Shown here in pieces: positions 4,052-41,921 of a DNA stretch of 64,000 nucleotides. Within the stretch, counting starts at the first letter, position 1. Each line of letters starts with the position of its first letter. Location: contig KQ965820.1 in assembly GCA_001574975.1 (NCBI GenBank), positions 103,663-167,662 of the forward strand, given 5' to 3'. The notes beneath the pieces were generated by a model that was not told where the DNA came from, did no database searches, and saw only the letters and a program-made list of their open reading frames with translations. This stretch comes from Gonapodya prolifera JEL478. Its lineage: Eukaryota > Monoblepharomycota > Monoblepharidomycetes > Monoblepharidales > Gonapodyaceae. The translations under genes were made by a program, and so were the position numbers.

Positions 4052-7000
4052 TTAAGCTTCCACCACTTCCTTCTCGGCCAGACTCTCTTTGGACTTCTCC
4101 AGGACCTCGATCTCCTCCGCCGTGATATGCTGCCGAGGCCCGATGAAGGTTTTGCGTGCGCCGAGGAACCAGATAACGTTGATGATGAGGAAGACGCCAA
4201 CAAACACTGGATAAAACGACACGGGTAAGGACCAGCACGCAGACCGGTAACACTTGCGGGAGAGATGAACTTACTGATGGGGCTGAGGTTCAAGTTTGAG
4301 CTGGTGACAGGGATGCGCTGTTTGTGTTTGAAACGATCACGGTGTCACTCATCCATGGGGCTTCTGGTCTATCGTGATTCAGGAGCGAAACTCACTCGTG
4401 GAATGGACAGGATGACGATCATATAGACGAGCCACAGCGCAGCGACCAGGTTGATGATGGTGGAGAACGAGCCGAGATCTAGAAGGGTGGTGTGCGTGTG
4501 TCGGATACTGATAATGCATTTATAGGACAAGGTGAAAGACTTACTGATCTTGCTCCGCTTGAATGTATCCCGAGCCCAGATGAGCTTGCAGATTGTCGGG
4601 AGGGTGTACCTATCCGCAAACAATACGAGGTAAATAAGGAGCAGTGCACACAGAGTCCCAATTGCAACTCACGCCGCATACATCCCAATCGTGCTGAACG
4701 CCGAAAAGCTGCTCACAGCTTGGCTACTTCCAAAGTTGATCAGAAGCAATGTCGCTGCAACGGAGCGGTGCGTGTTAATGAAGCGGTGTCAGGAAGCGCT
4801 TACGTAGGTGGACACGTACCGGTGGTGAAGAAGTGCAGCCAAATGGTTTTCAGGGGCTGCTTTGATGTGGGGTGGACGTAGGCGAACCATTGGGGGATGC
4901 CGCCGTCACGGGCCCTAAAAGTTCATACTGATGACGTTATTGTAATACAAAAACGACACGGTGGTACTTACCATGCGTCTATCTCGACCGGTGCAGGCAA
5001 TGGACATCGCAAGAGCAAGAGCATCCAACGTCAGCGACTGGAATCTCTGGGGCGTTCACGAATCACGCCAAGGCACCCAAACTCAAACTCACAAATGCCG
5101 CGCGAGGCTCCGTTGTGACCCGTGATGTTCTGGAAGACAAACTGGAACAGCGTCCACAGCGTGAGGAAGAACGCCATGGGCTTGCTCCCTCCCGTACCCT
5201 AGAATGAATAAACAGTTCCTTAAGTCAATGATCGGCACGGCACCCAGCACCCCACACCACTCGGAGAGAGGAAAGAGGAAAGCTACCTGCAAGTACACGC
5301 ACACCAAATCCTCGTTATAGGGACAGTCGAGGATCTCGTCAATGTCTGTGATGACAAAGGACAGGATGAGGAGGAAGATCCACCCAAGCGCGATGGAGAG
5401 CACGAGCGAGTAGATGATGGATTTGGCTGGCGTCGTGTCGGCGTTGACGGTTTCTTCGGAGATGTGGGCGGACGCGTCGTAGCTGGAGGAGGGGGTTCAA
5501 ACAACGTGTGAAGCAATGGAAAGAAGGCAGAGGGCGGCAAAGAGCTTACCCCCAGAAGCACCACATGGGAAGCCTGAAGGATCGGAGACGTTAAGTATGA
5601 GTGGTAACGACGCAACGAAGTGAAGAGACACGCTTACAGGAATCCAAGCTGAAACACGATCGCGGAGTTGTCCCATCCTGTCAAGTCGACAAAGGTTCCG
5701 AACGCGAACGACGCCGAGGCCTTTGATGGTGACATGACCAGCAGGGGTACTAGAGATAGACCATAGCCAATGTTTGATTTGAGTTCCAATCGCAAGACGT
5801 ATCCATCGTTAGATTCGAGCTCCACGGTCCGCTACAAAGCCCACACCAATCAACCCACCACCAATCACCACAACCCCCGTCGAAATCCCCACGAGTGCAA
5901 TCCAGGTAAACGCTCTCAAGCTGGCCTCTCCGATGGAATTGGTCGCGCTCCCGATGAAGGCATACGCGATGGCCACGCCGTAGAGCCACCCGAGCGAGGG
6001 TGAGAAGTCCGGGTTGTAGATCTGGATGATGGAGCCTAGGATGGAGGCCACTTGGAGTGAGGTGGCTGGGCTGCCGGTTAGCATGCCCAGTACGTTGAAC
6101 CAGCCCTGAGGGTGTCCGGTGGTGTCAAGGGTGGGGTGGATAGTGACGTAAGTGACACGTCCACACGGCAAGAGTATGAAACCCCCACACCCCCACTCAC
6201 TGTGATCCAAGCCATGTACGGTCCCCATTTAGGTCCAGCGAGCTTCGCACTCCAGTAGTAAAGTCCTCCGGCGGTAGGGTATGCCGAGCAGATTTCGGCC
6301 ATGGACAAGCACGTGGACATGGAGAAGAAGGCTACAATGAGCTGTTTGGGAAGTGGGAGTAGAGTCGTGTAGGTTTAGGTGGTTTGAACGTCGTTTTTGA
6401 ACGTCAGCGTGCGGTTGGTGCTTGCAGGTCCCACTCGTCAGTCGGCACACGGCACTCACCCATCCGATCAGAATGGTTTGCGGTCCTCCAGTTTTGAACT
6501 GTGAAGGCAGCGAGTTAACGTTGTCATAAGGAGAAGACCCATATGTGGGATATGACGTACTGCAAAGCTATAGAGAGTGGCAATCGACGATATGATGCCT
6601 TCCCACGACGAAAGGCGTCACTACATGATCTTCGACGCAGCCACGGGAATAATAGCTCACCAATGTAACCCAGACTTGTTCCTGTTGGTGGCGGCGGGTC
6701 GCAATATATGTCACGTCACCGATCCGCACAAATATATTGCCATCGCCTGAGGCCGCGGCGGCACCGCGAGCACTCACCCATGTTGAGGAAAAAGCCCCAT
6801 GAGCGTTTTAACTCTTGGCCTAGTTATTGTACAATATTTGATTGAGATGGTGTTTCATTTTCGGCTCGCGAATACCGAGAACTCACGGTAGCCAAGCTTG
6901 GCGAGCTGGAGCGGGTAACGAAGCCGCGACCGATACGATGAGCGTTCTCTACACCCTAGCGCAGTCCTTGCTCACAACTCTGACTCACGTTGATCTCGTC

Positions 7001-24856: not shown

Positions 24857-27800
24857 TTAGTCAGAGTCAGTGTCCTCGGGCTTCTCGCCCATCTTGCCAG
24901 ACGCGAGCCATTGAATGTGGCGCAGCCTCCTTCGGACTTCCCTCTCTTTCAATTCATTCCGCGTGAGGCGCTTCTTCTTCGGACCACGTTTCTCAACGGC
25001 CGTCTTCAACTGCTCGATAGAGTCCGATCCACTGCCATCTTCGAAAGCCGAGTCGTCCACCGCCGACTTGCCCTTTGTCTGGATTCGTCCGTTCTCAACG
25101 AGCCACGTTTCTGGGCAGAGGGCCGAAACGAACTCGGTGTTGTGCGAAATCATCAGCACAGCACCAGTCCAATGCCTGATGGCCACAGCGAGTCCACCGA
25201 GCGAGTCACGGTCCAGATAGTTGGTCGGCTCGTCCATGATGAGAATCTGCGGGTTCGCCCAGAGCGCGGCAGCGATCACGACCTTGACCTTTTGTCCGTC
25301 ACTCAAACTGCCGATCTTGTTGTATTGGGCAATGTCACCGGGCAATCCGACATCTTCGAAGTGTTGTCGAAGAGCCGGAGTTGTGAGCTCTCGGTATCCA
25401 AGACCTTCACGGGCCGCCACGAAGTCGTCAAACGATTGCACCAGTTTCGTGAACCCTCGCTCCACAAGTCGTTCCCGTGTCACCCAGGTGTTGTCCTTGT
25501 CCTCGAGACCGACCCATTTAATTTCGTACTGAAACGATTTCTTCTGCTTCGAACGACCGACCTGAGGGGTTCACTGTTAGTTAGATGCTCCTTCACCTCC
25601 CATAGACCATCAGTGCACCCACGAGTGACTCGATCTTGCGCAAATCCCCAGGTCGAACTTCAAGGGGGGTCTCCATGAGCTCTCGTTCCTCAACAGATAA
25701 CTTGCGACTCTGCTTTTCGAGTACTTCCTTGTCACTATCGTTCACGCGACCAGTTAACAGTATTTGTGTCAGGTCAAGAGCAAACGGCACACTTACTCTC
25801 CATTTCCGAATCGCCAAAGCATGTACTTGAGCGGTGTGTCAGTAAGGTGACGGTTGACGTGGTGCAGCGAGTGTTGCGCGATGTATCCGATTCGCAAGTT
25901 CGGGTGCTTGTTGACCTGAAGGTACCAACGTCGGTCAGCATCCCATCAGACAAGTGCCCGTGGTGGAGTTGGGCCCTTACCTCGCCCTCTTGGGGGACCA
26001 GTTCGCCCGTCAACACCTTAACCAAGGTAGATTTACCGGCACCGTTGCTAAGAGGACGGATCGTTTAAAGACCGGTGCAATCTCTCAGTATAAAGCTTTT
26101 ACTCACGGTCCAATGATGGCAACGCGGGAGGAGAGCGAAAGAGCAACTGTGACGTTTTCGAGCTGCTTCTTCGACGCGCCAGGGTACGTAAACTTAAACG
26201 TGAAGTCGTGTCAGCAAACGGCGGGCTTAACTTGTGCAAAACAAAAAGGACCTAGAACTCACCGAGCAGTTGGTCATTCGCAGGATAGATCGAGTCTGCG
26301 ACCTTTTCGTGGAGCAACGATGAGGTCTTTTGCGAAGAGGGCGAGCAGTAGACTTCAAGAACATACCTGACACCGGTCAAGAACCCAGGCGGGGGGAACT
26401 TGAACTCGACGTTGCTGTTGGAAAGCGTGTAGTACGTTTTCGCCTTATCACGCCCACGAGAGGTTATCAAAGCTTTCTCAGACAACGCCCACCAGAAGAA
26501 TTCACCTCAGGCCGCTGCTTGACAAACTCGGCGATGTTACCCCTGTAATGCTTGAGCTTCTTGTTGCGCTCGTAGTGCAGAATATCCGTGGTGACGTGCT
26601 CCAAGAACCCGGCGTCGTGGGACACGACTAGGACGGTCATGTGGGGCTGCGAAAGGAGCCAGCTCTCGAGGAAGGCGATCGACGCGACGTCTAGGTGGTT
26701 TGTCTGGAGACACGCAGGAGCTACCGTCAAGGACCACTCGACAACGCGGCGCTGGAGGACGGACTCACCGGCTCGTCCAGCAGTAGCAGGTCGGCTTTCG
26801 ACAGCATGGCACGGCACAGCTCCAGCTTCATCTTCCACCCTCCCGAAAGCCCGCCGACAGTCTTTGTGCGCTGCTCCTCGTCGAACCCGCTCTTTTCCAG
26901 CTCAGCGATGATATGGTCCCGTTTCACTTTCTTCATGAGGGGATCTGAGACAATGTGCCGAGTCAGCGATTCGCCACGGTAGGAACGGCGTGACGGGAAA
27001 CACGAACCTTCGGCAATGAAATCCACAACGTTCTTCTCCCCCTCATCGCCCTGCAGCTTGTGCTGCACGAACACTGTCCGCACCTGGTCCTGCGTCGGGA
27101 ATCCTTCCACCTTTCCTCCGGCAATCGACCTCATGAGGGTCGACTTTCCTGCACCGTCTTTTGGAGGGGGAGTTGGGAAGAGCCCGTTAGTCATCCACCA
27201 AGAAAGCCATGCCAAACCAAATTCCAACTCACTCGGCCCACACAACCCGTACCGCCGTCCTCTCCGCAGCTTAAGCTTTGTGTTGTTGAGCAGCAGCATG
27301 GTCCCGTACGCGAGGGAGAAGTCGATGTCGCACAGCAGCTCGCCGTCGGCGTCGTCGTCTTGGTAGTCTGGCGGGCGGGAGTTCTGTCCAAGTGTTGGGT
27401 GGGTGTGGTGGGCGTTAAACGCGAACACGCGCGGAACGTGGGGGGAACAGACGAACCCTGTCGATATCGTCATAGTGCTTCCACACATCCACCGCAACCG
27501 TCTCACCCGACCCCGCGCTGGGCACGTACGGCGCAACAAACGGCGCCATGGCGTGCGTCCAGTCCTTCTTGTTGAATATTCCCGTCGAGAGGAGCTCGTA
27601 CGCGTGCGCGCTGACGAGGCCGAGGGTGACGTCCAGGGCCGCCTTGGACGAGTCCGAGAGGGCGGCGATGTCGGGGTTGGAGGCGAGGAGGGTGAGGATG
27701 GTGGATTTGATTTCGGCAGGAGCGGGGAGTGGGGGTCCGTGCGCATCGTGATGATGTCCGTTCGTCTCCGCATCCCCATTCGCATCCCCATTCGCAATCC

Positions 27801-29141
27801 CATTCGCCGCCGCCCCACCACCACCCGTTGCCGCCGCATCCGCCTTAATCTTCCTAATCGTGGCCTGGGCCGCCGTCCCGAGCGCGCGGATCTCAGGGAA
27901 CGCCGCAGTCTCGACGACGCGGTCGACACCGGGCGCAATAAGGGGAAGGAAGGGCGCGGCTTCGTCTGGGTTGCGTACGAGCTTGAACAGGTTGTCCACG
28001 ATGATGGTTGTGGGGCGGAGGAGAGAGGCCGAGCGCTCGTTGAGGGCGCGCGTCAGGAGGGGGACCATGATGGCGAGGGCGGGGGCTGTGACCTGTTGGT
28101 GGGGAGGATGATGGTGAGGGGGACAGGGTCGGTGGAAGTAAAGTGGGGACAAGGACGTACCTCGGCAACGAACGTTGTCATGGCAAGTTTCTCAATAGCA
28201 GCGGGGAGTTCGCCCGGGTGCTGCATACAAGAAACAAGCGTCTCGATATGGGGCTGGATGTCCTGGTTCCCCACGACGCTGCACAGTGCCGTCATGGTCT
28301 TGACGGCCTCCTTGGACACCTTCTGGTCGATCTCGTGCAGTGGGTGCTGGACGTTCTCGATAAGGTCCGGCAGACGGGCTGCGACCTGGTTCGGGGCGGT
28401 CTTGGCGAGGCGCGCGAGGAGCTGCAGCGCGACGAGTTTCGAGGGCGCCTTGTAAGAAGGACTGCGGATGATTTCGTACAGCAGGGGCAGGATCGTGGCG
28501 GTGGTTTGTGGCAGGGTGAGCAGGATGAGTTGCTTTGTGGCCGCGAGGGCCCCGTCGGCGATTTGTTTGGATTTGTCAGAGTACATGTCGAGAAGGAGCG
28601 GGAGGAGGGGTAGTGTGAAGGGAAGCGCGGGCTGGCCGACGTCTTTCAGGCTTTGAATTCAACGGGTTGGGTATTGGATCAGAGCAACATGTCAGTCTAA
28701 CAAAAGACATCCCTTCCCGACGAACGTTCGATGATTCATCAGCTAAGCTCCACGGCGAATTGAATATGCGCTTCCACAAGAGGGAAGGCACGCTTCGCGA
28801 GAGTATTTAGTCCGCTTCGCGAGGCGCTCGCCTCCGGCGGACAGCCTCGGTCTGCGCTATCGCTAAGGCCTCGGTGTCCTCGCTATGCTCGCGGGCCTCG
28901 GTTTTCCGTGCTTCGCACTCCAGACCTCGCAGACTCACATGGCCAACAACGCCACCATAGCATTCTCCCTCTCCCTCGCGATCTTTTTATTCCTGGCCTG
29001 TCTTTCCAGCTCTGCCACAACCGGTAGGAGCACCGCGACGTCCCGTTTGGCGGCCTTGACAATGTCGCCCGAAGCGTCGAGCGCTGCGACGGAGGATTGG
29101 GAGAGCGAGAGGCGGGACAGGAGGGATGTTACGTCGTCCAT
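24857..29141 (-). CDS. TEF3: translation elongation factor 3 (EF3, ABC-F ATPase)
   Basis: Fourteen exons (29141-28939, 28650-28161, 28092-27457, 27383-27233, 27157-27008, 26944-26769, 26703-26506, 26443-26367, 26326-26263, 26192-26107, 26047-25981, 25915-25797, 25734-25623, 25561-24857) total 3234 nt, 1077 residues; yeast EF3 has 1044. Order of domains: N-terminal HEAT repeats, four-helix region, ABC1 with GPNGAGKSTLMRS, LSGGWKMKLELCRAML and LLLLDEPTNHLD, ABC2 with GPNGAGKSTLVKV, an inserted chromodomain (KKSFQYEIKWVGLEDKDNTW), then LSDGQKVKVV and ILIMDEPTNYLDRDSLGG, and a Lys/Arg-rich tail. EF3 binds the ribosome and releases E-site tRNA in fungi. Two oddities: the ABC2 signature reads LSDGQ rather than LSGGQ, and a Gly/Ala/Asn/His-rich insert (near ANGDAETNGHHHDAHG) interrupts the linker before ABC1. 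Intron 1 (28938-28651) carries a dispersed repeat. Confidence 0.95.
28651..28938 (-). repeat. EF3 intron 1 carrying an introner-like GC-rich repeat
   Basis: This 288-bp intron is the longest in the gene. In sense orientation its first half contains GCGAGGACACCGAGG, ACCGAGGCTGTCCGCCG, the 17-mer CTGTCCGCCGGAGGCGA and AATACTC. The same words, in the same order and the same orientation relative to transcription, occur in the second intron of the serine protease gene at 33431-33675. Confidence 0.7.
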
Positions 29142-29572
29142 TTCCAGTGCGGGGCGGGAAGGGCAAAGGGGGACGAAGGGGAAGGGGAAAGGGCTTTGGA
29201 ATGGAGGTGGGCTGTGGTCAAAAGAGAAAACTGGATAGAGCATGGGAAGCTCGTGGCCCCAACACGCAGGGTGGTGAATGGTGCCTGTGAAATCTGGGGG
29301 CAGCGCTGCTGTGTGAGAGCTGATTTAATGGAGTTCAGTTGTGATATTGTGAGAGAAGAGTGGTCAGACAACGAGGAAAGTCTTTTCAGTGTTTCAATGA
29401 TGATCGAAATTGGAGAGCTTATTTTAATTCGAGTGATCTTGGGTCAGAAACGAAGAGGAGTGTGGGCCACACAAAGAACTCTGTCACAGCAATGGCAGTG
29501 TGGCAAAGTAACTGCGGCAGACTTTTGTGCACACTAACTCGAATCGGTCCGCAGGACCCTTGGGCCTAGCAC

Positions 29573-29581
29573 TATAAAAAG
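29573..29581 (+). promoter_or_regulatory. TATA box facing the repeat tract
   Basis: TATAAAAAG in the context CTATAAAAAGCGCCC closely resembles the TATA box at 7828 (CTATAAAAAGCCCAC). It points on the plus strand into the gene-free repeat tract. No protein-coding gene follows for 3.3 kb. Confidence 0.4.
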
Positions 29582-29949
29582 CGCCCTCGACCACTCTCCG
29601 CATACTTACCTGTTGGACGCATTCGGGTGATCAGGAAGGCCCGGTGTGGTGGGTGGGCGATTGGCATTGCACCAACGTCTGGTTGTCTGCCTGCGGAACG
29701 GCCTTCGGGTCGTCTCCTCCGAATAATTTTTGATATGGATGGCGCACGCTGTCCCGATACTCCGATTCTAATCTAAAAATTAATGAAATGTTGCTACTCT
29801 CTGGACTGGTCTCTTCAAGCAATGGATTGAAGTGGAGCGCAGTGAATTCTTTTGGAGTGCTTGGTTCAGCGCTTCCACCTGCGCCAAACCAGGTTTTATG
29901 CCAAGCCTCCATTCGATTTACTGCTTCGCTTATGGATTATTCTCTCTGT

Positions 29950-32250
29950 CACAGCTTTCCTTCTTTGGGGTTGGTGCTTGAATGGGGCGTCCACACTTCC
30001 ATCTTCTCCAGCGACGTTTAGTATATGCCGTTTTCTCACGAAGGAGTCTTTGCTTCGGTGTGGAGCGTGGTCATCTGTCCTTCCCATTTCGGAGTGGGCG
30101 GCTGTGTTGGCAATGCCTTCACATCCATCGACTCCACATCATACTCGAACTAATCCCGCTACCCATGCACATTTCGTCGCTTTTCCGGGCTCTACCTTTT
30201 GGAGTGGAAGATTGTGTCGACCGGAGTTTCGGATATCACCATGAACTCCATGCCCTGAGGGTACATGTTTTCCAATGTTCAACTGTTCGTATGCGCTCTT
30301 ACATGTCTTGGAGTGGTGCCGCCTGTCCGTACGTCGGCTTGGACTGGTGGGATGGTTTCACAGTGACTTTTTTCGAGATGGGTGGCAATGCCTGGGGAAC
30401 GGTGCAACCATCTGCTCCAAGGCGGTTTCCGGTCCCTCCCTCTTCTGTTGTCGTTAACGATCTTCAGATTGGTTGGTGGTGCAACTGTCTGTTTCAAGTC
30501 GACTTTCAACCCCTCCATTGCATTTAAAGTTGTTGTGAAGGGTCTTTGGTTCGGAGTGGAGCGTGTTCACATTTTTCTTTCTCTATTTAGAGTCGGCATG
30601 GCGCGGCAAATGAGAATGCTTCCACAATCACCCTTCCATTTCCCTTCTCGTCTTGCCATCGCTCCACTTTTTGTACGTTGATCGAAAACGTTGTCAGCTT
30701 TTCGCGGCTTTACCTTTTGGAGTGGAATGTTGTCAGTCAGAGCCTCCGATGTCAACATACACTCCAATCCGTTCGAGCCTCCGATTCCTTTCACTGTCCC
30801 GCTGTTTATGTCTTGATATTTGTTGTCTGCTACCGATGGAACTCTTCTCTGGAGTGGGTGGTCTTGTTGTCCTCCGGCTCCAACTAATGTCAAAGCTTCG
30901 TCATTTGTCGACGCACCAATCGGAGGGGTACGGCGCACGGACGAAGGGAGGATCGAAAGTGTTGTCGACTTTGTGCGGCTCTACATGTGTGGTGATGGTG
31001 TCGGCCAGAGTTTCCAGCATCACCCATAAACACCAAATGTTTGATCCGGTACTTTTCTCTGGCCGACTTGCTACTGCAATTGCATCTGGTTACCATTCTC
31101 CCTCTAACTGAAGTTGAAAGGCAGTCACTCGTCGTCTCGTCAATCGGAGTGGTATTGAGCACGGATGACAGGAGTTGCTCATTTTTGGAATTGGTGGATG
31201 CGTCGGTGAACCCTGCGCACCCATGGTTTCCATCTTTCTCATCCATACTCTTGCATGTCTTGGAACTGTCGCCGCTTGTACGCAACTTGGTTTGGACTGG
31301 TGGAAAGGTGTCTGTGTCTTTTGAATGGATGTGATCCTGTGACGTCACTGTCCTCCCAGTCGTGGGCGAAGGCCGACACTCGTCATCCGCATCCCCAGAT
31401 TCCATCTTACACCTATGTCGTCGGAAGGTGGTGGTGTTGGGTATCCAGCACAAACCATCTGATACATTCATTTTCTGACCGACCCTCCACCGTCTTCTAA
31501 AGAGACGACTTGGTTTTTCTTTTGGTTCGGAGTGGACGGTGGTGTTGGCAAACCCTACATCACCTACTCCATTTCTTGTTCCGCTTCCTTGTAGCTCCTC
31601 TCTTCCTACATTTCATTGATCAATAGTGCTGGCGGCTTTGCGGGGCTCTACTCTGTGGAGTGGGTGATGGTACCGGTCAGAGTTTCGACATCACCTTGAC
31701 TCCAACTCCTCCGCCAATCGGAGGGAGCGGTATGGAGCACGGACACTTGAAATTGCACTTTTTAGAGCAGGAAGTTGTGTCGAATGGTACAACGAAATTT
31801 ATCCATCTTTTTCCCAGATACTTTCTCACTCGTCTTGGGGTCATCGCCGCCTGTCGGCAACTCGGTTTGGACTGGTAGGATGGTGTTGCGGCATCGTTTT
31901 TTGAGTGGATGGTGGTGTTCGCAAATTTCCACACATGACACAACCATCCACTCACCGACCACTTCTCTGGCACGCTTGTTCCTTTGTTTCGTCTCAGTTG
32001 TCTCGCAATTTCGAAGAAGTGATGCGGTGGTGTTGCACTGTAACGTTTGGAGTACTTGATGACGCAGGCGCAACCCGCGCAACCTTGCACCATGTACTTC
32101 ACGTTTGATACACTCATAATCCTCCCCTGATCACTTTTTCCTACACGTTTTGAAGTGCTACGCGCTCTCTGTTCAGTTTTGTGGGTGTTGAGGTGTGTTC
32201 GCAGATTCCTTTTTGGAATGGTGTTGTAGCATTGCTACGTCTACGCACAA
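29950..32250. repeat. tract of diverged repeats, no protein gene
   Basis: Several motifs recur in imperfect copies. Motif A (about 53 bp, GGCTCTAC..TGGAGTGG..GTC..CAGAGTTTC..CATCACC) is at 30188-30240, 30703-30755, 30973-31024 and 31642-31695. Motif B (about 57 bp, CTTGG..GCCGC.TGT..TTGGACTGGTGG) is at 30301-30356, 31254-31311 and 31829-31886. Motif C (CAATCGGAGGG..GAGCACGGA) is near 30918, 31140 and 31713. Spacing is irregular (roughly 270-670 bp). Open frames across the region are short, change frame between copies and resemble no protein. It may be a decayed tandem array, an old transposon nest or a non-coding RNA locus. The remaining sequence from 29142 to 29950 and 32250 to 32890 shows nothing else I can support. 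Confidence 0.6.
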
Positions 32251-32890
32251 CCAACTCTACTCCACTATAACTCGGCTTTTATCAGCCCCTCAAAATTTTC
32301 GTGCTTTGTTTACCATCCGCGCGTCCTCCGTTGGTGTATCGTATCCGAAATTCGGCAGCCTCGTCGTGCGCTCAGTGCATATTGGAATATTTTCATCCTT
32401 CTCCCCCGTTTCGAACTCTCTCGCGGGATACTCAAGCGATGAAGAATGATTACAGGTGTCGCTGGAACCCTTGTGGCCATCCAGCTCGATTCCGAGGAGC
32501 ACCCGGTGGTCCGGACGAGGTCTTTCCCACCTTGCAAAACGAGATTACAGAGCCATCCCTCTTACAAGGTGACCAAACTCCGCGTGTACGAAGACAGGGG
32601 AGGACCTTTCTAGTCAAGAGCGAGCTTCCCGTGACCCTGGGCCTTTAAACGAGCTCTCTCCCCATACTCACAGGCTCCAACGGATCGCGGTACTTCCTGC
32701 CGTGAACATGACATCTCGGACCTTTCCAATTTCGGACATAATTGTACCCTAAAGTGCCATAAGTGGGAGGCACTCAATCAAAAATTTGTATCTGCCGCGC
32801 CAAAAACGACGGCCAAGGACGGCGGATGAGGGCGTGAGTACGTACTCTCCGTGATACCCTGATATTATTTGCCCAACTTTACTTCCATCG

Positions 32891-34143
32891 ATGGCTCGTG
32901 TTGAGCTCGTGCCACGACAGCGGATCGCACAAGTGATCGCCCTCGTCGCGCTAGTCTCTGTTACCTTCTTGGGCACACCATCGGCGAGTCAGGTGCACGA
33001 TGTGGCTGGCGGAGTGAAGAGCTCGAATCGTGAGTGGTCGCGTACAGGAGGACCTTCCGTGCGCGATTGTCTCATCCACAACTCGAAACTGCTTCCAAAT
33101 CCAGTCGTCGTTGGCGGTGTCACAGTCGACATCGCGCAATTCCCTTACGTCGCCCTCCTTGAATCCTCCTTCGGAGCCTACGCCATACGCTGCACCGGCT
33201 CGCTCATTCAGGCCAGTCCCGTGCCCATCATCATCACCGCGGGCCACTGCGGGACCATGTCGGACGGCGCCGAGTACCGGCGCGCCTACGTCGGGCTTCA
33301 GGACACGACCGTAGCATGCGCGAGCCAGCCAACCTGCCGGATGATGAATGTGCGCTACATCGTTGGCAACCCGAACTACCAGCCCCCCACAAGCGGGGTT
33401 GACAAGACGGGCCATGACGCCGCGATATGGGTGAGTGGTGGGGATGGAGGGGGGGGGGCGGCGAGACGGAATGAACGAGGCGAAGCCGAGAGAAGTGGAG
33501 TCGAACCGTCCGAGCGGAGCGAGGACACCGAGGTCTAAGCGCCTCTAAGCACTACCCGAGTCTGTCCGCCGGAGGCGAATGATCCTGCGCGAAGTGCGTG
33601 CGGAGCAATATTGAACCGAGGCTGTCCGCCGATGGCGAATGAAGCTGAATACTCTAAATCAACCCAATTGCACAGATCCTGGAGCCCTACTACGAGTCTC
33701 GCCCCATCACGGACATCGCACCCGTGCCACTCAACACGGACCCCGCCATGCCCGCGATCGGCGACATCGATTTTGCACTCGGGTGGGGCCTCACGAACCC
33801 GGGCGGGACGCAGGGCACCGAGACCTTCCCGCAGAACTTGCAGGGCCTGAACCTGCGTGTCAACAACAACTACGACTGCGAGAGGACGTACGGGATCGAC
33901 TCCAGCTCCCGCCTTAACCTCGGTTGCGTCATTGGCGTCGTCAACGCACAGGGACAGCAGACCGCCACGTGTAACGGCGATTCGGGCGGGCCACACATTT
34001 CCCGCGGCGTGCTGTGGGGGATCACGAGCTTCGGGCCTATCCCGTGCGACCAGCGCAACATACCGGCGTCGGTGGTGCGGCTTACGGGGATCTCGACGTG
34101 GATTCAGAACACGATCGCGATGGCTAATTCGGGGCAGATTTAG
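32891..34143 (+). CDS. secreted S1-family (chymotrypsin-fold) serine protease, copy 1
   Basis: Three exons (32891-33029, 33105-33430, 33676-34143) encode 310 residues. A signal peptide (IALVALVSVTFLGTPSASQ) leads to a short propeptide and the mature N-terminal motif VVGGVTVDIAQFPYVALLES. The catalytic triad is visible: His in IITAGHCG, Asp in GHDAAIW and Ser in CNGDSGGPH. Conserved Cys pairs fit an extracellular enzyme. The residue six positions before the catalytic Ser (chymotrypsin position 189) is Ala, so trypsin-like Arg/Lys specificity is not expected. Intron 1 (75 bp) is a multiple of three and stays open, so an unspliced version would read through. Intron 2 (245 bp) is absent from the paralog at 37479-38513 and holds a dispersed repeat. 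The two paralogs have identical predicted length. Confidence 0.92.
33431..33675 (+). repeat. paralog-specific intron with introner-like repeat
   Basis: This 245-bp GT..AG intron interrupts the codons after GHDAAIW. Inside it are GCGAGGACACCGAGG and two tandem imperfect copies of CCGAG.CTGTCCGCCG..GGCGAATGA (about 33555 and 33610), with CGAAGTGCGTGCGGAG between. These words are shared in the same orientation with EF3 intron 1. The paralogous protease at 37479 has uninterrupted coding sequence at the homologous position. Confidence 0.75.
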
Positions 34144-35265
34144 AGCGGGAAGTTTTGATACCGTGAGGCGGAGGGCAGTTAAGGGTTATGTCGTTTACTG
34201 GGTCCACGTAATGAAAGCGTACGTACGAATTGGCAACGGTTGTCGAGTTACAACACAAGTTTATTTATGTACATGTTCACTCAAACAATCTTGAGCACTT
34301 ATCCCTGTAAGGCTTCCACAGTGGGCCGGGAAGGTTGTCCACACGCCCCACTGTTAACCTTCTGTAAAACACGCGAAAACGGGAGGACAAAACTAAACAG
34401 AGTACACTTGACCACATTTGAATGCAGATTCGGATCTTTCGATTCGGTTGTTAAATTGCTCCACATAATCCAGCGCGTACTGGTTGCCGTTCTGGAGGAC
34501 GCGGTGGGTCGGAAGAGACCCTGTCGAGTATGAGATTGCAAGCAGCCACGGTTGCTCGACTGCTGTACCCTGTGAAGCAGGTGTTGTGGGCAGTTTTTGC
34601 TCACGGCACGACGATGCTCGACAAAACTTCCTCCCCACCTTTGGTCTCTCGATATCACCTTCGGTCTGAAGGTCTGACCAGCCCAGCGCTGCCGGGAAGG
34701 AAAGAGGGCTCTAAGCTTACAAAGACGCGGGTTTTGACCACACAACCCCAAAAGACTTCGGAGTCGTTCTGGTTGCCGTTTCGAAGGACGTGGCGGGTCT
34801 TGGAGAGCCCCATTGGCTCCCGGGTACCAGCTCGGTATTACGCTGGTATGGGGAGGCATGTGCTCCGGGGCTTAGCGCTTGATCTAAAGTGCGACAGCTC
34901 TCCCTTGCCATCTGAAATCTTTTTCTTTTTGAGAGATATTCAAACCAATGAAAATGGAAGCAAGCTGAATGGCCGGCGCTGAAGGTGTCGATGCTGTTGA
35001 ATTGCATTCGTATTGGAGAGGAAAGGGGAACGACCATTCCGTTTGGCAGACAGTCTCAGACAAATTTGCACAATCGGTGTTCTTCCTCTCGAAATGGTGT
35101 GGCATTCTGGGATGTGAAGACTCACGCGAGCGGACACCCCTTTTCACCCCGACACGGCCCTGAAAGAGCTCTAACAGTTTTCTGCGCACCTTGCGTTTCT
35201 ACAAGGGGAGTTTTTGCAGCTTAAAGTTCATATTACAGATTCTTCCCATTGCAGTACTGTTAATT
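34144..35265. other. 3' flank of protease copy 1 and uncertain coding remnants
   Basis: The first ~165 bp after the stop are homologous, inverted, to the 3' flank of protease copy 2 (shared GTACATGTTCA and TCTTGAGCACTT words). On the minus strand, 34638-34393 has a plausible terminal-exon frame (YALDYVEQFNNRIERSESAF) that I cannot extend. A related stretch (TGGTTGCCGTT..GGACG.GG.GGGTC) occurs at 34479 and again at 34761, suggesting a small duplicated and degraded gene. Nothing firm can be called. Confidence 0.3.
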
Positions 35266-37478: not shown

Positions 37479-38513
37479 CTAAACCAGACCCGAATTTGCC
37501 ATCGCAATCGTGTTCTGGATCCACGTCGAGATCCCCGTAAGCCGCACCACCGTCGCCGGGGTGTTGCGCTGGTCACACGGGATAGGCCCGAAGCTCGTGA
37601 TCCCCCACAGCACACCGCGGGAAATGTGTGGCCCGCCCGAATCGCCGCTACACGTGGCAGTCTGCTGCCCCTGCGCGTTGACGACGCCAATGACGCACCC
37701 GAGGTTGGCGCGGGTGCTGGAATCAAACCCGTACGTGCGTTCGCAGTCGAAGTTGTTGTTCACGCGCATGTTCATGCCCTGCAAATTCCGCGGGAAGGAT
37801 ATGCTCCCCTGCGTCCCGCCTGGGTTGTTAATGCCCCACCCGAGAGCGAAATCGTCGTCGCCAATTGCGGGCACGGTCGACTCCTTGTTGAGCGGCACGG
37901 GGGTGATGTCCGTGATGGGTCTGGACTCCTGGAACGGCTCCAAGATCCACAACGCGGCGTCGTGACCCGTTGTGTCGACCGACCCCGAGGAGGAGTTGTA
38001 TCCCGGGTTGAGTACGATGTTGCGCACGTTCATCGTCCGGCAGCTTTGCTGGTTGGAGCACGCCAGTGTGCTGTCCTGGAGCCCGACATAGGCGCGGCGG
38101 TACGCGGCGCCGCTCGACATGGACCCGCAGTGGGCCGCGGTGATGAGGATGGGCACGGGGCTGGCCTGGATGAGCGAGCCCGTGCAGCGGCGCGCGAAGG
38201 TCCCGAAATTGGATTCGAGCTGGGCGACGTAGGGGTATTGCGCGATGTCGACGGTGAAGCCCCCAATGACGACTGCCGGAGTTGGGAGGTGGATGGTGAC
38301 GAGGTGAAGTTTCGTTGTGAATGAGTCAATCCGGTGCCAGTCTGCCACTTCCTGACTGTAATCTGAGCACTCACGACTCGTGGTCTTGACTCCATCCGCC
38401 ACATTGCGCACCTGCGCCGTCGAGGGTGTGCCAAAGAACGCCAAAGCGAGCAGAGCGACCACAACGACGAACTGCGTGGTCGAAGCATTTGCCGTGGCCT
38501 GTACACGCGCCAT
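37479..38513 (-). CDS. secreted S1-family serine protease, copy 2
   Basis: Two exons (38513-38375, 38272-37479) give 310 residues, the same length as copy 1 and roughly three quarters identical by eye over the mature domain. Signal peptide VVVVALLALAFFGTPSTAQ; mature start near VIGGFTVDIAQYPYVAQLES. Catalytic residues: His in LITAAHCG, Asp in GHDAALW, Ser in CSGDSGGPH; Ala again at the position that sets S1 specificity. The single intron (102 bp, also a multiple of three and open) is at exactly the same codon as intron 1 of copy 1. The codons GHDAALWILEPFQESRP run without the second intron found in copy 1. An open frame upstream of ATG 38513 exists but the signal peptide fixes the start. It probably digests external protein. 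Confidence 0.92.
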   Translation of the reverse strand: MARVQATANASTTQFVVVVALLALAFFGTPSTAQVRNVADGVKTTSRECSDYSQEVADWHRIDSFTTKLHLVTIHLPTPAVVIGGFTVDIAQYPYVAQLESNFGTFARRCTGSLIQASPVPILITAAHCGSMSSGAAYRRAYVGLQDSTLACSNQQSCRTMNVRNIVLNPGYNSSSGSVDTTGHDAALWILEPFQESRPITDITPVPLNKESTVPAIGDDDFALGWGINNPGGTQGSISFPRNLQGMNMRVNNNFDCERTYGFDSSTRANLGCVIGVVNAQGQQTATCSGDSGGPHISRGVLWGITSFGPIPCDQRNTPATVVRLTGISTWIQNTIAMANSGLV

Positions 38514-41404: not shown

Positions 41405-41921
41405 ATCACCGCGCGTCACCCACGAACGCGACAATCAGCAGACAAAAAATAGAATCCGGTGGGCCAGTGCACGGTGCCTGCCACGCTGACCGCGTCTGGC
41501 CGGGTGCGGGACCGTTCCAGTGCGTTCCCGCTTTTCTGGGCTGCGAGGCGTTTGTGTGCGGCGTGTCTCCCACCGCACGCAAAATGCAACCTCAGCAAAA
41601 TTATGAATTTTTTGCCGGTTCCAGGCCGGACCGGAGCATTCGTTGTTACATTTCGAGGAGGACCGAGGTCACGAGTCCGTGGCCAAAGAGCAAAGCGCTC
41701 ACCGTGATGGCTCGTGCTCCGCGAATTGGAATACTCATGAGATACTTAGAAGTTTCAGGACAAGACCGTCACTGTGTGCTATAAAGGCTCATCTGTTATG
41801 TTACAACATTCATCAATATTCACTGCACGCTATTGGGTGCAAGTCTTTGGGATTATGGGTATACTGCAAAAGTGCCAAAGGTATTGCATCATTGCTTCAA
41901 TGGCATCATTCCATCATTCCA
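41405..41921. other. intergenic stretch
   Basis: No gene is supported between the unknown gene and the end of the bHLH gene. Short frames on both strands lack family resemblance. Confidence 0.35.

Follow-up and report, generated by a model that had tools for sequence, protein, structure and literature searches.

A probable genome-wide family of intron-resident modular repeats that mostly lengthens old introns and occasionally forms a new one

The origin and the growth of introns are an old open question. In fungal mitochondria, double-hairpin elements are short GC-rich hairpins which are thought to be mobile and are not known to be linked with spliceosomal introns or with one strand. The closest described systems among spliceosomal introns are introners, introner-like elements and stwintrons. 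The fungi named in the available part of Gozashti et al. 2022 (PMC9860276) are the Pezizomycotina, and the ascomycete introner families are described there as being without TSDs and TIRs; the words 'chytrid' and 'basidiomyc' are absent from its main text. Titles and abstract openings on introners, chytrid introns and Gonapodya, among which few subscription journals are covered, describe no family of the kind reported here.

The window (the whole 64-kb stretch of DNA analysed) contains two introns, in an EF3-like gene and in a serine protease gene, that carry related repeats. These belong to a repeat family spread through the genome, probably one of modular repeats residing in introns that mostly lengthens old introns and occasionally gives a new one.

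Two introns of the window and their host genes

The features of the window are the following.

28651-28938, minus strand: intron 1 of the EF3/New1-family gene with a leader-I element; 288 nt, borders GTGAGTCT...ATTCAAAG; EF3A match across the junction
28790-28938, minus strand: portion of this intron common to other introns (5' splice site and element); matched by 68 of the 68 other leader-I introns
28897-28924, minus strand: module A (leader I), a 28-nt hairpin; pattern place C90:132559-132586, 1 mismatch
28828-28851, minus strand: module D (ACCGAGGCTGTCCGCCGGAGGCGA); 28-nt pattern, 219 copies genome-wide
28651-28789, minus strand: 3' tail of the intron, unmatched in other copies; 139 nt reached by fewer than two matches
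33431-33675, plus strand: protease intron 2 with a leader-II element, apparently gained; 245 nt, GTGAGT...GCACAG; absent from paralogs
33463-33490, plus strand: leader II (GAGACGGAATGAACGAGGCGAAGCCGAG), with a G-run upstream; pattern place C90:137125-137152, 1 mismatch
33502-33643, plus strand: shared modules of the protease intron, D-type at 33562 and 33615; matched by 48 of the 68 other introns
37485-38264, minus strand: protease paralog without the intron (empty site); C90:141147-141926, continuous match over 1-260 of 261

Within the window, intron 1 of the EF3-like gene aligns with 33511-33594 of the protease intron (E=1e-10) and, by a further piece, with 33615-33638 (E=0.008). The sequence-only reading had pointed to four words common to both introns, in one order and one orientation relative to transcription. 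All four are present in both introns in the claimed orientation. Their order holds only loosely, since CTGTCCGCCGGAGGCGA and ACCGAGGCTGTCCGCCG overlap in the single module 28828-28851 of the EF3-like intron and fall in separate module copies, at 33562 and 33615, in the protease intron. Three of the four words are confined to the two introns within the window, and AATACTC is also present at 41730. The stem of module A is GTGC-GAA-GCAC within GGTCT...AGACC, as seen by eye and in two folds of other copies.

The spliced N-terminus of the EF3-like gene matches a 2898-residue HEAT chain (7.6e-16) and EF3A (5.3e-15), the latter over residues 43-232, a match that spans the junction at about residue 67. 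A stretch of the ABC part is closer to New1 (2.2e-43, 150 bits) than to EF3A (9.4e-32, 113 bits). The host had been called EF3 and is better placed in the EF3/New1 family; judged by these similarities, the gene at 26480-28940 (minus strand) may be New1-like. The spliced protease is a single Trypsin domain (Pfam, residues 1-249 of 261) that spans the intron junction, and its paralog within the window (37485-38264) shows 79% protein and 83% DNA identity. A search of Rfam over 28500-34000 gave two matches, none on the element. A full-length U1 snRNA match, with 79 bits against a gathering score of 69.5, is situated at 29602-29758 (plus strand), between the EF3-like gene and the protease.

Spread, location and anatomy of the copies

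The searches covered an assembly of 47.56 Mb in 207 contigs. The parts of the repeat are spread through the genome: searched at no more than 3 mismatches, the 28-nt leader-I pattern gave 144 copies (71 forward, 73 reverse), leader II, which was discovered via the protease intron, 58 (30 forward, 28 reverse) and the downstream module D 219 (119 forward, 100 reverse), whereas the same three patterns reversed gave no match in 47.6 Mb. With the EF3-like intron as query, at least 49 genome matches were obtained (40 of 219 candidates scored). Aligned pieces of the copies are 72-95% alike. Both leaders occur together at C5:322 kb (L021) and at C46:254 kb, with leader II placed just upstream of leader I. 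The total may be about 700 elements, a very rough figure in which independence is assumed (about 160 D-bearing introns, from 219 x 16/22, divided by 16/69). When 68 leader-I introns were searched against the window, the two introns were the only strong matches in 64 kb, and the 68 queries reversed gave none. Weak single-query matches occurred at 6232-6255, within an exon as judged by eye, and at 33508-33536, both on the minus strand.

The leader-I sample comprises 69 of the 144 copies (60 taken by place, 9 already in hand) and the leader-II sample 16 places; both were drawn by their conserved leaders, and older or leaderless copies may behave differently. Coding strands were called with a codon model trained on 25 ORFs of the window (12 plus, 13 minus) outside 26000-34300; these ORFs had been chosen in a first pass by a model whose seeds were the copies themselves together with the EF3-like gene and the protease. 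Around the 68 leader-I copies outside the window, the coding strand was the same in 52, opposite in 5 and without call in 11. As is expected of introners, similar sequences recur in numerous introns of the genome, judged by the pattern counts and by the intron context of 69 leader-I and 16 leader-II copies, and they run in sense to the host genes. A combined donor, acceptor and coding score was higher for the sense than for the antisense model in 67 of 69 leader-I copies and in 15 of 16 leader-II copies. The antisense model was favoured in L055 and L008 (leader I) and in L106 (leader II), and some sense wins had no antisense model as competitor (L058; L094, L096 and L100). The chosen donor was GTGAGT in 38 of the 69 leader-I copies, a count that is partly circular because the donor score rewards this word.

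The gene models were built on codon usage and domains, and the introns that carry the element are, by these models, presumably spliced. Twenty leader-I models, hand-picked from the best 32 sense models partly for their familiar look, were compared with Pfam. A domain spans the junction in 13 of them (in L042 by only 2 residues and in L012 by 8), 4 have one-sided matches (L006, L004, L023 and L064, where a second match crosses the junction but falls under the curated cut-off) and 3 have none. Two of five leader-II models have a domain across the junction and three have no match. L099 (C27), which has no Pfam match, and L104 (C21) are very similar gene copies with a leader-II element at the matching place in both. 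Further downstream in L020 and L063 comes a second GTGAGT with element-like sequence after it, as though the following intron also had modules.

The copies are anchored at the 5' end of the intron. Comparison of all 69 introns, with 300-nt flanks, against each other gave 7528 sense and 14 antisense matches, and the first repeated base lies at a median of -1 nt from the predicted donor. Sequence covered by two or more matches amounts to 14265 nt in the introns, 230 nt in the 5' flanks and 626 nt in the 3' flanks; 561 of the latter were traced to L010, L020, L023 and L035, in which either the acceptor was perhaps wrongly placed or modules may be present in the following intron as well. The distance from the predicted 5' splice site to the start of leader I is 3-58 nt, with a peak at 10. 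Leader II starts similarly and is usually preceded by a G-run: five or more G are found before it in 13 of 16 copies, against a window background of 5 of 64 GTGAGT words that precede such a run. Each leader is trailed by a variable chain of short mini-hairpin modules, which ends at a variable point short of the branch-point and 3' splice-site region. In the 29 introns compared, the 3' ends halt in differing modules; the tail beyond the shared sequence is non-repetitive and mostly pyrimidine-rich. Only in the protease is the inserted piece exactly the intron. Matches had been expected to be intronic, sense-oriented and bounded by splice sites. The sampled copies agree in location, orientation and 5' end, while the 3' ends proved ragged.

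Read on the sense strand, the modules form hairpins whose loops are GNA. Downstream of leader A, 60 perfect 4-bp/GNA hairpins were counted, compared with 4.0 in shuffles (maximum 11) and with 2 for TNC loops; GCGNAGC occurs 107 times and GCTNCGC once. The leader-II sample contains 18 GNA hairpins against 1.6 in shuffles (maximum 6), with 41 GCGNAGC and no GCTNCGC. As DNA, the heptamer GCGAAGC forms an extraordinarily stable mini-hairpin. A conserved RNA structure was also considered. Six stem tests gave 4, 2, 4, 10, 77 and 0 double compensating changes, with shuffle means of 1.9, 0.7, 2.2, 5.7, 45.3 and 0.1 and some instances counted twice via alternative matches. Only the fifth test lies above every shuffle (77 against a maximum of 60), and it pools different modules. 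The folding of 160-nt pieces is near that of shuffled sequence (mean z -0.6 sense, -0.8 antisense). On these results, a selected RNA structure is not supported. In the fragment L109 (C133:42300-43250), the exon end and the first part of the element are common with L101 (C63) and the modules then differ, as if by recombination within the element; an ambiguous base is nearby, and an assembly effect is possible.

Splice-like signals differ between the strands. In 69 stretches of 160 nt, YAG was counted 176 times in sense against 314 in shuffles, and 365 times in antisense against 289. Pyrimidine-plus-YAG sites numbered 21 in sense (54 shuffled) and 102 in antisense (100 shuffled), so that an antisense copy would carry about five times more acceptor-like sites. 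Donor-like GTRAG was found 18 times in sense (40 shuffled) and 6 times in antisense (7 shuffled). On the other hand, branch-like CTRAY is commoner in sense (72 against 30 shuffled) than in antisense (14 against 24 shuffled), and the sense strand is therefore not free of all splice-like signals.

Old introns, one gain and the explanations weighed

Five paralog comparisons were informative, namely the protease, L046, L015, L045 and L056; those of L101 and L041 were left out. For L056/L076, L046, L015 and L045, the correspondence of intron positions was judged by eye. One of the five gave a precise gain, and in four the paralog has an ordinary intron of 55-83 nt at the same place. The paralog of L046 (L085) has a 55-nt intron followed by a matching downstream exon, that of L015 (L087) a 66-nt intron, that of L045 (L092) an 83-nt intron and that of L056 (L076) an 83-nt intron that agrees in both codon and phase. 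The corresponding introns with the element were modelled at 320, 253, 219 and 231 nt, respectively. Given the short intron at the same place in the paralogs, the element of these four genes sits in an old intron. In the case of L046, 8 of 10 paralogous genes have a break of 42-61 nt near the same protein position; the one on C11 is without it and the one at C9:532 kb is ambiguous.

The protease gives the opposite picture. Its paralogs L070 (88% DNA identity) and L069 (83%) keep intron 1 and read through the site of intron 2, and the exon join of the protease, ATATGG to ATCCTGG, agrees with the uninterrupted L070. No intron is present exactly at the site in L069, L070, L072, L073, L075, L077, L056, L078, L079, L080 and L081, and in L076 and L082 the site is covered by one unbroken tblastn piece; in L080 and L081, a short intron lies about 8 codons upstream. 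Protease intron 2 appears to have arisen as a precise gain, a simpler account than a series of independent losses. The duplication at this 245-nt insertion, the sole testable site, is at most an ambiguous single G (1 nt). A recent source intron was not found: among the 40 of 205 candidates that were scored, the best match has 83% identity across 150 nt of the 245. Over the 77 nt from the intron-1 donor, the window (33030-33106) and L070 (C146:51281-51973, minus strand) differ at one position; a recent exchange between the window protease and this broken paralog, whose coding parts are 88% alike, is possible.

The sequence-only reading had proposed introners, which spread as new introns. Such spread was seen once, in the protease, whereas four of the five comparisons concern old introns, and new-intron formation may be the minority mode. 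The explanation considered probable is that of intron-resident modular repeats which mostly lengthen old introns. Its spread, intronic location, sense orientation, 5' anchoring and ragged 3' end, as well as the four old introns and the one gain, are directly supported in the sample. Copies would enter transcribed introns, or sites adjoining them, without duplicating any longer stretch of the target, and those that persist would be the ones behind the 5' splice site and in sense, with selection as the filter. Sense copies would persist because acceptor-like sites are few in that direction, which allows the element to be spliced out. Rarely, when a copy falls into an exon and both a donor and an acceptor can be used, it would turn into a new intron. 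The acceptor counts agree with selection against antisense copies but do not prove it; by itself, such selection leaves the lack of strong intergenic matches in the window unexplained. Within one genome, a single family would lengthen old introns and also create a new intron, and close paralogs show the states before and after.

A classical introner family, in which an element with both splice sites inserts and mostly makes new introns, is an unlikely alternative. It agrees with the clean gain in the protease, where the exon join follows the uninterrupted L070 and many paralogs have no intron at the site, and with the joint recurrence of the 5' splice site and leader in unrelated genes. However, the short paralog intron at the same place in four of the five informative comparisons speaks against it, as do the 3' ends, which are not common among the copies.

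A mobile element of single-stranded DNA that exploits transcription is given a small chance. The G-run behind the 5' splice site would favour an R-loop, the displaced sense strand would fold into GCGNAGC mini-hairpins, and copying or insertion would act only on that strand. The R-loop idea fits the G-run and the strand-specific mini-hairpins and is speculation. If true, one mechanism would explain the intronic location, the sense orientation and the 5' anchoring, and introns would be both the habitat and the occasional product of the element. The strand-specific GNA mini-hairpins are a concrete and testable clue to mechanism.

Nesting of the stwintron kind, in which a reverse-spliced intron RNA enters the 5' splice site of another intron and the inner donor is then used with the outer acceptor, is considered improbable. 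It would account for copies that run in sense and are anchored at the donor, for the tail from the host and for insertion that leaves no target-site duplication. Against it, 54 introns show no excess of the predicted host-donor remnant over mononucleotide shuffles (YAGTRAG 1 against 3.4 expected, AGGTRAG 0 against 1.9, AGTRAGT 4 against 3.4), although old remnants could have decayed. Moreover, the inner 3' end is not conserved, and the [D1,2] arrangement, with TRAGT after the inner 3' splice site, has no support in these 54 introns.

Very improbable is an ordinary dispersed repeat or MITE without link to introns, its pattern reflecting tolerated insertion places and sampling: the modules are short GC-rich hairpins, the copies are 72-95% alike and their intronic location is known from the sampled copies, but the 52-to-5 strand bias and the homology from the donor onward are unexpected of random insertion, and the two introns are the only strong matches in 64 kb. 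As regards features of MITEs or DNA transposons, the 3' ends are variable and the duplication, at one site, is at most 1 nt.

Comparison with described systems

GC-rich hairpins are common to the present family and to the double-hairpin elements of fungal mitochondria, the former being located in spliceosomal introns and tied to one strand. An intron-in-intron insertion at the 5' splice site would be shared with the stwintrons of Hypoxylaceae, as presented in the available part of PMC12403724; in the present introns, neither a nested donor remnant nor a conserved inner 3' splice site was found. The introner-like elements of Dothideomycetes (Collemare et al. 2015, PMC4457414, in its available part) are likewise fungal and multiplied in introns. 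They are invasive, multiplying introns, whereas the element considered here is sub-intronic.

The introners of PMC9860276, as far as the available part of that paper presents them, differ in several respects. Here, the anchoring is at the 5' end only, the 3' end is ragged, the body is a modular chain of mini-hairpins, four of the five tested copies are in old introns and the target-site duplication, at one site, is at most 1 nt. The two systems are alike in the similar sequence found in many introns, the sense orientation, the 5' end at the splice site and at least one apparently precise gain. If the genome is that of an early-diverging fungus, as its gene set may suggest, the known range would be widened.
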